Shown: one piece after another, positions 21,434-24,392 of the stretch
Position numbering within the stretch: the first letter of the stretch is position 1
Layout: each line of letters begins with the position of its first letter
DNA from: Terriglobia bacterium
GTDB lineage: Bacteria > Acidobacteriota > Terriglobia > UBA7540
DNA: 64,000 bases
NCBI GenBank assembly: GCA_020073545.1
Contig: JAIQEZ010000004.1
Coordinates: 1 to 64,000, forward strand
Direction: 5' to 3'
Notes under the pieces: generated by a model
Seen by the model: only the letters and a program-made list of their open reading frames with translations
The model's database searches: none
What the model was told of the DNA's origin: nothing
Program-made: the position numbers and the translations under genes

Positions 21434-21511
21434 GAGGAGGGCCAACTCTTGCGAGGTTCCGGGAAGCTGCGGTAGGCACTCGGAGGCGCGATTTTCAAGG
21501 CTGTGGAGAGG

Positions 21512-21540
21512 TTTGCACTCACCCGGATTCGTGTTATATT
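21512..21540 (+). promoter_or_regulatory. Probable dnaA promoter
   Basis: TTTGCA (21512-21517) and TATATT (21535-21540) are separated by exactly 17 bases, a good sigma-70-type promoter about 210 bases upstream of the chosen dnaA start. TGTGGAGAG just upstream (about 21502) is a 7/9 match to a DnaA box and might allow autoregulation; that part is weak. Confidence 0.55.
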
Positions 21541-21751
21541 AGGGAAGTGAAACGAATCATTCCCAGCGGGTTACGGGGCCGTCTGGGAACTGTCTCAATA
21601 CTCAAAATACGGGAAAAAACCGTGGACAGCTAGCGGAGTTTGAGGCGCCTTAGTGACGCCAGTCCTTTCAAGCTCGCAGAAGGAGTTAGTCTCGGACCAA
21701 CAGTGCTCCTACCGGATGGGGCTGACAGGTTGCTTTCCCTCTGAAACCGCC

Positions 21752-23074
21752 ATGAACGCTTGGCAGGAAATTCTGAGCTATTTGAAAGCCAAGGTGAACA
21801 CCCAGAGCTACCAGACTTGGCTTCGGCCGACCCGCTTCAGCCACACTGACCGTGGGGCGCTGGTGGTACGCGTCCCCAACCGCGAATTCCAGGACTGGAT
21901 TCAGGAGCACTACGGGGGCCTGATCGGCGAGGCGCTCGAGCAGCTCCACTTAGACTTTCAGAAGGTCCACTACGTCGTGGAGGAAAGCGCGGAGAAGAAG
22001 ACCCTCGAGGGCGGAGACAGCAAGGCGCTCCAGGCGAAGCTCGACTTTGAATCCGTCGACCACCAACTGAATCCGCGTTACACCTTCGATACCTTTGTGG
22101 TCGGGAGCTGTAACCAGTTTGCGCATGCGGCGGCGCAGGCCGTGGCGGAAACGCCCGCCAAGGCTTACAACCCGTTGTTTCTTTACGGCGGCGTGGGACT
22201 GGGAAAGACGCACTTGATGCAAGCCGTCGGCCACACGATCAAGAGCAAGTGGAAAGAGATGCGGCTGGCTTACGTCTCTTCGGAGCATTTCACGAATGAA
22301 GTGATCAACTCTCTGCGCTACGACCGGATGGTCTCCTTCCGCGATAAGTACCGAAACGTGGACGTGCTGCTGATGGATGATATTGAGTTTATCGGCGGCA
22401 AAGAGCGGACCCAGGAGGAGTTTTTTCACACCTTTAACACGTTGTATGAAGCGCAGAAGCAGGTGGTAATCTCGAGTGATTGCCCGCCCAAAGAGATCCC
22501 CGGCCTGGAAGAGCGACTGCGCTCGCGTTTCGCCTGGGGCCTGACGGCTGATTTGCAGGCTCCGGACCTGGAGACGAAACGGGCTATCCTGGCAAAGAAG
22601 AGTGAGAGCCAGGACGTGGTGTTGCCCGACGATGTTAGCGATTTTGTCGCACGGAAGATCAAGTCCAGCGTCCGCGACCTCGAGGGAGCCTTAACGCGCT
22701 TGATTGCTTATTCTTCTCTGACCGGCGCTGCTATCTCCCTGGTGATGGCGCAGCAGGTGCTTAAGAACTTAGTTGACTTGGAGGAGCGGCGGGTCTCAAT
22801 CGAGAACATCCAGCGAGCTGTCTGCCGGGAATTCGGCCTCAGCCTGCCGCAACTGAAGGCGAAGGATAACAGCCGCGCCGTTGCTTACCCCCGGCAGATT
22901 GCCATGTTCCTTGCAAAGCAACTGACCCCCGCATCACTGCCGCAGATCGGCAGAGAGTTTGGCGGAAAGCATCACACTACTGTCCTCCACTCCATCAACA
23001 AAATTACAGAGATGCGCGAGACTGACCGGGATTTGAACAGGCTTCTCAACAAGCTACGTGATAGCCTGAATTGA
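21752..23074 (+). CDS. dnaA: Chromosomal replication initiator protein DnaA
   Basis: The 440-residue protein has all four DnaA domains: domain I (WQEILSYLKAKVNTQSYQTWL, DnaB/partner contact), a short linker, the AAA+ domain III with Walker A GGVGLGKTHL and Walker B VLLMDDIEFI, and domain IV with the DNA-binding signature REFGGKHHTTVLHSI. The frame is open upstream to a GTG at 21653, but domain I homology begins at MNAWQEIL, so the ATG at 21752 is preferred; no strong Shine-Dalgarno is seen there. It is followed by the candidate origin and dnaN. Confidence 0.96.
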   Translation: MNAWQEILSYLKAKVNTQSYQTWLRPTRFSHTDRGALVVRVPNREFQDWIQEHYGGLIGEALEQLHLDFQKVHYVVEESAEKKTLEGGDSKALQAKLDFESVDHQLNPRYTFDTFVVGSCNQFAHAAAQAVAETPAKAYNPLFLYGGVGLGKTHLMQAVGHTIKSKWKEMRLAYVSSEHFTNEVINSLRYDRMVSFRDKYRNVDVLLMDDIEFIGGKERTQEEFFHTFNTLYEAQKQVVISSDCPPKEIPGLEERLRSRFAWGLTADLQAPDLETKRAILAKKSESQDVVLPDDVSDFVARKIKSSVRDLEGALTRLIAYSSLTGAAISLVMAQQVLKNLVDLEERRVSIENIQRAVCREFGLSLPQLKAKDNSRAVAYPRQIAMFLAKQLTPASLPQIGREFGGKHHTTVLHSINKITEMRETDRDLNRLLNKLRDSLN

Positions 23075-23276
23075 AGTTGGTGTGTTATGCAAGTCTTACT
23101 TGAGTGGGAAATTTGTGAATCTTAGTGACGAGGCCAAGAATCCTTGGTAATCCTCAACTCCTGGGAGACCATTCACACCGGCAGGGTGCCTAAGTTGTGC
23201 CCGCCGCGAAGCTTCACGAATTTTCCACATATACACAGCACTACTACTAAATACTTTCTCTTGAGGGAAAATCTCT
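23075..23276 (+). other. Candidate replication origin (oriC) with DnaA boxes and DnaA-trio
   Basis: The dnaA-dnaN spacer contains TTTTCCACA (23221-23229) and ATATACACA (23229-23237), each one mismatch from the DnaA box TTATNCACA. They are followed by CTACTACTA (23241-23249), then an AT-rich run AAATACTTTCTC. Box, short gap, repeated CTA (3'-GAT on the other strand) and AT-rich DNA is the arrangement of the DnaA-trio basal unwinding element described in Bacillus subtilis. Weaker 7/9 boxes occur at TGTGAATCT and CCATTCACA further left. The 202-base size and position match known bipartite origins. Confidence 0.65.
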
Positions 23277-24392
23277 ATGGAATTTTCTACCAGTAAGGCT
23301 GATCTCCTCAAGGAACTCACCTTAACGCAGGGCGTCGTTGAAAGAAAGACGACCATCCCCATTCTTTCCAACCTACTTTTCGAGGTTGAGGAATCCACCC
23401 TCCGCATTAGCGCTACGGATCTTGACCTTGGCATTCGCTGTGGATGTCCAGCTAAGGTGATAAATGGAGGGTCGGGGACTATCCCTGCGAAGCGGTTGTT
23501 TGAGATTGTGCGCTCTCTGCCTGATGCGGAGGTCCACTTCAAGCTCCTCGAAAACCACTGGGTGCAAGTTACGTGCGCACGTTCATCCTTCAAGCTTGTG
23601 GGAATGGCCAGAGATAACTTCCCTGTGCTACCGACTACCCCGAAACCCGTTGCCGCACTTCCGGCGGGGGTTTGCAGCGCGATGATGCAAAAGACTATCT
23701 TTGCGATTTCGAGCGAGGAATCGCGCTACACCTTGAACGGGGCGCTACTACTTATGAAGCCTGAGAGCGCCAGCATGGTGGCGACGGACGGCCACCGTTT
23801 GGCGCTGGTCGAGTGTGACGTGCAGGTGCAGGGACTGAAGAGTGAGTTGCGAGTTCTGATACCCAAGAAGGCGATGGCCGAACTCCTTCGCCTGCTGTCG
23901 GAGGCGGAGGAGGAAACCCCCGTGGAACTCTCAAAAGACGAGAGCCATCTCTTTTTCCAAATTGGCAGCCGCGTCCTGATATCGCGGATGCTGACGGGGC
24001 AATTTCCGAATTATGAGGCCGTTCTGCCGCGGGAGAACACCCGGGTTGTGGAGTTGGACAAGGAGCAGACGGCGGCCGCAGTCCGCCGCGTAGCCCTGCT
24101 TGCCGACGAGCGCTCGCATGCTATTCGCATGCAGGTTGAGAAGGACCGGGTTGAGATATTCTCCTCCAGTGGTGAGTATGGGGAGGCGCATGAAGTCCTC
24201 GACGCCACGTACGACAAGGAATCCATACAGATCGGCTTCAATTACCAGTACCTACTTGATTTCATGAGTGTGGTTGGGGAGGGCGGCAAGATCCGGCTAG
24301 AGTTGAAGGACGAGCAGAGCGCGGGGCAACTTCGGCCCGCTGAGCAGGGCGCTTACCGCTACCGCTACGTTGTCATGCCCATGCGCATTTGA
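23277..24392 (+). CDS. dnaN: DNA polymerase III sliding clamp, beta subunit
   Basis: The 371-residue protein is the complete three-domain clamp. Visible are MEFSTSKADLLKELTLTQGVVERKTTIPILSNLL at the N-terminus, DGHRLALVEC in domain II, FPNYEAVLPREN and the C-terminal YRYVVMPMRI, which forms part of the partner-binding cleft. Length matches the family (about 366-375). GAGGG lies about 10 bases upstream of the ATG, inside the right edge of the candidate origin. Confidence 0.97.
   Translation: MEFSTSKADLLKELTLTQGVVERKTTIPILSNLLFEVEESTLRISATDLDLGIRCGCPAKVINGGSGTIPAKRLFEIVRSLPDAEVHFKLLENHWVQVTCARSSFKLVGMARDNFPVLPTTPKPVAALPAGVCSAMMQKTIFAISSEESRYTLNGALLLMKPESASMVATDGHRLALVECDVQVQGLKSELRVLIPKKAMAELLRLLSEAEEETPVELSKDESHLFFQIGSRVLISRMLTGQFPNYEAVLPRENTRVVELDKEQTAAAVRRVALLADERSHAIRMQVEKDRVEIFSSSGEYGEAHEVLDATYDKESIQIGFNYQYLLDFMSVVGEGGKIRLELKDEQSAGQLRPAEQGAYRYRYVVMPMRI

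Follow-up and report, generated by a model that had tools for sequence, protein, structure and literature searches.

The window, meaning the whole 64-kb stretch of DNA that was analysed, is contig C174 of an assembly of 261 contigs (5.28 Mb, 95.5% complete) in which one dnaA gene was found. Searches with profile HMMs placed dnaA directly upstream and dnaN directly downstream of a short intergenic region, with gyrB next after dnaN (HMM) and then a gyrA-like reading frame (annotated by eye). The features discussed below are as follows.

21512-21540, + strand: putative dnaA promoter (TTTGCA-17-TATATT, with TG before the second hexamer; consensus scan)
21752-23074, + strand: dnaA (TIGR00362, 550.9 bits)
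23075-23276: dnaA-dnaN intergenic region, probable oriC (family lengths 183-210 bp, mostly 198-210)
23148-23156, + strand: weak extra DnaA-box-like site TAATCCTCA (7/9)
23218-23318: probable DNA unwinding element (nearest-neighbour stability scan)
23221-23229, + strand: DnaA box 1, TTTTCCACA, equivalent of B. subtilis box 6
23229-23237, + strand: DnaA box 2, ATATACACA, weaker, equivalent of B. subtilis box 7
23241-23249, + strand: three DnaA-trios, CTACTACTA on the + strand and 3'-GATGATGAT on the bound strand
23277-24392, + strand: dnaN, sliding clamp (TIGR00663, 282.8 bits)

The start of dnaA is probably the ATG at 21752; an ATGAAYGC start is kept in relatives, and the in-frame GTG upstream at 21653 probably belongs to the leader. 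An extended -10 block before dnaA, GTGNTATATT (21530-21540), is kept genus-wide and partly across the family. The nearest named relatives of the window DnaA are from Acidobacteriota (Acidobacteriaceae, Acidobacteriota and Acidiferrales records, 60-61% identity), so the phylum assignment is sound; an Acidipila record has 63% identity over its best segment.

Boxes, trios and duplex stability in the dnaA-dnaN gap

A preliminary description of this DNA had proposed a candidate oriC at 23075-23276, and the HMM assignments of both flanking genes show that these positions are exactly the dnaA-dnaN gap. Within it, 23221-23249 reads TTTTCCACATATACACAGCACTACTACTA. The two boxes are in tandem and point in the same direction, as had been described, but they do not abut: one base is shared, which gives an 8-bp register. 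The description of each box as 8/9 to the DnaA box holds for TTTTCCACA, while ATATACACA reaches 8/9 only to TTATNCACA and is 7/9 to TTATCCACA. That a trio begins 3 bases past box 2 and that AT-rich DNA comes after it can be read directly in the sequence, where GCA at 23238-23240 separates box 2 from the trios and AT-rich AATACTTTCT directly follows CTACTACTA.

A basal unwinding system (BUS) is recognised by a DnaA box with at most two mismatches to TTATCCACA, with or without a second box, and by at least three 3'-NAN trios, preferably 3'-GAT, within 16 bp of it. Here TTTTCCACA has one mismatch and ATATACACA two, and the trios are three exact 3'-GAT, separated from box 1 by 11 and from box 2 by 3. 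TTTTCCACA also agrees at every position with the box dialect of Acidobacteriota. Box density in the window gap is low (three sites with at most two mismatches), and only three canonical trios follow the boxes. Gaps of the family average 3.7 boxes with at most two mismatches, compared with 0.6 in shuffles, an excess of DnaA boxes adjoining dnaA and dnaN as is expected of an oriC.

A nearest-neighbour scan of the 64-kb window found no 80- or 100-bp stretch less stable than the one that starts at 23218; among 50-bp stretches, that at 23240 ranks second. In 21 of 30 family loci, the 50-bp stability minimum of the locus coincides with the element. The unstable AT-rich DNA that a BUS has over or beyond its trios is therefore present here.

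Conservation in the family and in the phylum

Such an arrangement could be a chance likeness, with a common box-like 9-mer lying beside a short CTA repeat, and the box pattern TTWTNCACA alone does have 125 matches genome-wide, little over the 99 of its reversed control. The combined pattern TTWTNCACA-N7..16-CTNCTACTA, however, has one match in the 5.28-Mb genome, none on the other strand of that genome and none there for the reversed control, and it recurs at the equivalent place across the family. A box+trio score of at least 16 was reached by 24 of 30 family intergenic regions and by 0 of 900 shuffles. Chance similarity is refuted by these conservation tests, and we assign it a negligible probability.

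Equivalently placed box sites, some 30-60 bp ahead of dnaN, are present in 29 further genomes of the genus and family; box 1 precedes the dnaN ATG there by about 55-65 bp. A clear trio follows the boxes in most of these 29 genomes and is degenerate in a few (G009, G012, G028 and G036 among the family members), so the conservation in close relatives on which the preliminary description had made its proposal depend was found. An exact motif search across 39 family genomes gave matches in 18, at a single place in each (in G007 as two overlapping matches), while the control pattern gave none. Over 30 family genomes, mean conservation in bits per column is 1.7 for box 1, 1.0 for box 2 and 0.7 for the trio, compared with 0.2-0.35 elsewhere in the gap; the trio value is this low because a one-base difference in the spacer and changes in copy number lower the average. 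The first trio follows box 1 with a spacer of 11 in the genus of the window (12 in L003) and of 12 in most other family members, and trio length differs among relatives by whole triplets, with an extra CTA in G006 and G007. The gaps of L001-L030 hardly vary in length (mostly 198-210 bp) though most of their sequence has diverged, which suggests a constraint on spacing.

A strict box+trio score, passed by 0.1-0.2% of shuffles, was passed by 25 of 30 family gaps and by 22 of 92 other acidobacterial gaps. All 47 strict-score matches in Acidobacteriota run from dnaA to dnaN, as do all 39 high-scoring matches in other phyla. Beyond the family, most genomes of the class have no recognisable trio and fail the strict cut-off. 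Taken with the family matches, this makes conservation of the element firm within the family but patchy at phylum level; its sequence is not conserved phylum-wide. Many acidobacterial origins have no recognisable trio, so loss or alteration of the module can occur inside a single phylum. The named DnaA relatives and the conservation in the family bear out the earlier view of an acidobacterial locus with a box-trio unwinding module and a likely oriC. As a separate observation in the same class, about 37 kb of one G060 contig (C6) separate dnaA, at roughly 339 kb, from dnaN, at roughly 377 kb.

The gap as a probable replication origin

The solved structure closest to the window DnaA is 8btg, whose sequence matches B. 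subtilis DnaA and which we take to be the cryo-EM complex of the BUS described in PMC10721633. Four of the five trio-capturing residues (Asn187, Ile190, Arg202 and Glu228 in B. subtilis numbering) are identical in the window DnaA and the fifth, Ile193, is changed conservatively to Leu, so that the residues for trio capture in a BUS are in place; the arginine finger Arg264 of B. subtilis DnaA is also kept. The roles of these residues were described for B. subtilis DnaA in PMC10721633 and PMC8287927, and alanine at Asn187, Ile190, Ile193, Arg202 or Glu228 caused severe growth defects there (PMC10721633).

From the sequence, position, direction and conservation of the element, the low stability of the duplex and the presence of the needed DnaA residues, we infer that DnaA binds here, that the strands are unwound and that the gap is used as a working origin. 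The dnaA-dnaN gap is very probably the chromosomal replication origin with 23221-23249 as its BUS, and the element itself is a real, conserved and probably functional origin unwinding module. In the mechanism that we propose, DnaA would bind box 1 (strongly) and box 2 (weakly) through domain IV, as adjacent and co-oriented molecules, and would extend from this anchor rightward along the lower strand. Adjoining AAA+ domains would capture the G and A of each 3'-GAT trio, and this capture would stretch and part the strands in the AT-rich DNA up to the start of dnaN, an opening that would lead to helicase loading.

The origin call is based on gene context, box excess, conservation and parS; GC skew has no part in it. 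Origin-proximal parS sites were found in four family genomes, three of which (G017, G030 and G035) are of one genus. They lie upstream of dnaA by about 55 kb in G017 (C17:47149 and 47983), 35 kb in G030 (C33:68737), 26 kb in G035 (C154:3248 and 4078; one mismatch) and 64 kb in G013 (C31:29845; one mismatch). The 64-kb window contains no parS; in the source genome three parS-like sites are clustered at C99:22128-22643, on a contig separate from the window.

Within the window, cumulative GC skew reaches its minimum near dnaA, at 20.8 kb. In G017, the 440 kb around dnaA show a weak skew that is mostly positive to either side of the gene and dips only locally before it, and the skew is also weak over 200 kb of G030, over 120 kb of G013 and at fourfold sites by gene strand; a clean switch at dnaA was not found in these three relatives. 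In G055, a genome of the same class with a 6.2-Mb contig starting at dnaA (C1, sampled at L229-L248), the skew swings strongly (about +0.2 to -0.2) from one sample to the next at intervals of 310 kb, a pattern that heavy inversion of the assembly or the chromosome would give.

This lack of a skew signal marking dnaA as the origin in relatives, and the location of the conserved block 28-56 bp before the dnaN ATG, where it reaches the ribosome-binding site, would fit a block that serves dnaN above all as a DnaA-controlled promoter or leader element, with replication starting elsewhere. Such a role would leave unexplained the changes of length in triplet units, the near-fixed spacing from box to trio and the match to the BUS of Bacillota, and parS lies nearby in relatives. 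Scans of the dnaA-dnaN gap for a sigma-70-like promoter, a terminator or an Rfam match gave nothing, which also counts against it and disposes of these explanations for the gap. We consider a primary role in dnaN expression very unlikely.

Alternatively, the gap may be the origin but be unwound mostly through other parts of the gap or through AT-richness, with the trio contributing little. The small number of trios in the window, the degenerate trios of the four family members named above and the many acidobacterial origins lacking a recognisable one all speak for a minor trio. Within the family, strong conservation in the gap is nevertheless confined to the boxes and trios, and we regard a minor role of the trio as unlikely, if less so than the promoter role. 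A bipartite origin of the B. subtilis or clostridial type was rejected on the finding that no second cluster of DnaA boxes lies upstream of dnaA, where 21434-21760 holds a single 7/9 site, CTCTCCACA.

Known unwinding systems and the acidobacterial box dialect

The element resembles the BUS of B. subtilis (boxes 6 and 7 plus trios; PMC6669920, PMC10721633) in its placement between dnaA and dnaN, its direction, the short gap between boxes and trios, the 3'-GAT repeats, the AT-rich DNA that follows and the kept trio-capturing residues. It differs in that box 1 is TTTTCCACA and not TTATCCACA, that there are three canonical trios where B. subtilis has six, that no box cluster was found upstream of dnaA, and that helix 5 of DnaA reads KHHTTV and not RDHTTV. 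Bacillota loci share this arrangement, e.g. TTATCCACAAATCCACAGGCCCTACTAGTA (L057), and have tandem boxes in the same 8-bp register, whereas the box-to-trio spacer, usually 11 in the genus of the window, is 12 in most of them. Clostridioides difficile oriC2 (PMC7561715) is comparable in that its unwinding site lies between dnaA and dnaN and has a clear DnaA-trio; the C. difficile origin is bipartite, whereas no upstream part is seen here. Cyanobacterial origins (PMC4674748) share the TTTTCCACA box and adjoin dnaN, but their DnaA keeps Asp at 433 (KDHTTV in L100, L106 and L110).

The BUS was defined in B. subtilis. Pelliciari et al. 2021 (PMC8287927) predicted it for 85% of 2070 origins from across the bacterial tree and tested the function of DnaA from six more species; the main text of that paper does not name Acidobacteriota. 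A literature search for Acidobacteria together with the DnaA-trio, with most subscription journals outside its coverage, found no paper. Since a BUS is already reported as widespread in bacteria, the novelty is modest, and the preliminary suggestion of an extension to a phylum with poorly studied origins is not supported in so far as such an extension would be unexpected. The window element satisfies the published rule (a box with at most two mismatches, a spacer of at most 16 and at least three NAN trios), but the rule is loose: 15-25% of shuffled gaps pass, which is too permissive for it to serve as evidence by itself. For this reason, the strict scoring and the conservation test, both of which the window element passes in addition to what was required of those predictions, are the stronger evidence. 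What they provide is conservation-backed evidence in Acidobacteriota for a module of the B. subtilis type, including the box register and the box-trio spacing. An acidobacterial BUS supports the proposal of an ancestral module, and the locus supplies a precise fragment for in vitro tests.

At the position of E. coli Asp433, one of the residues reported to contact the DnaA box (PMC7561715), 118 of 119 aligned acidobacterial DnaAs, the window DnaA included, have His and the remaining one has Asn. Asp433 is kept in all 67 DnaA sequences from other phyla, and the form FGG-x-D-H-[S/T]-T-V is encoded in none of 149 acidobacterial genomes. The bases before TCCACA in acidobacterial origin regions (dnaA-dnaN gaps plus dnaA upstream regions, loci L001-L038 and L131-L210) are TTT in 150 cases and TTA in 11, a dialect of TTTTCCACA over TTATCCACA; the corresponding counts in lineages with R432/D433 are 14 and 138. 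Background DNA of the family has TTT and TTA at 10 to 4 and therefore explains part of the TTT bias, and the comparison of residue 433 with box dialect is confounded by phylogeny. A change of R432 to K alone was rejected as the cause of the TTTTCCACA dialect, as lineages with K432/D433 in other phyla show both forms (21 TTA, 15 TTT); cyanobacteria with KDHTTV likewise use TTTTCCACA. We put forward only tentatively, as somewhat less probable than its opposite, that Acidobacteriota have a box code of their own, in which Asp433 became His in the ancestor of the phylum and box preference moved to TTTTCCACA while the B. subtilis-type box-trio geometry was kept. If so, the box in the window would be a perfect site for its own DnaA, and the pairing of His433 with TTTTCCACA offers a simple test of co-change between DnaA and its box. 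In the window, this helix 5 segment of dnaA is encoded at 22961-22993 and reads GGKHHTTVLHS, with His at the Asp433 position.
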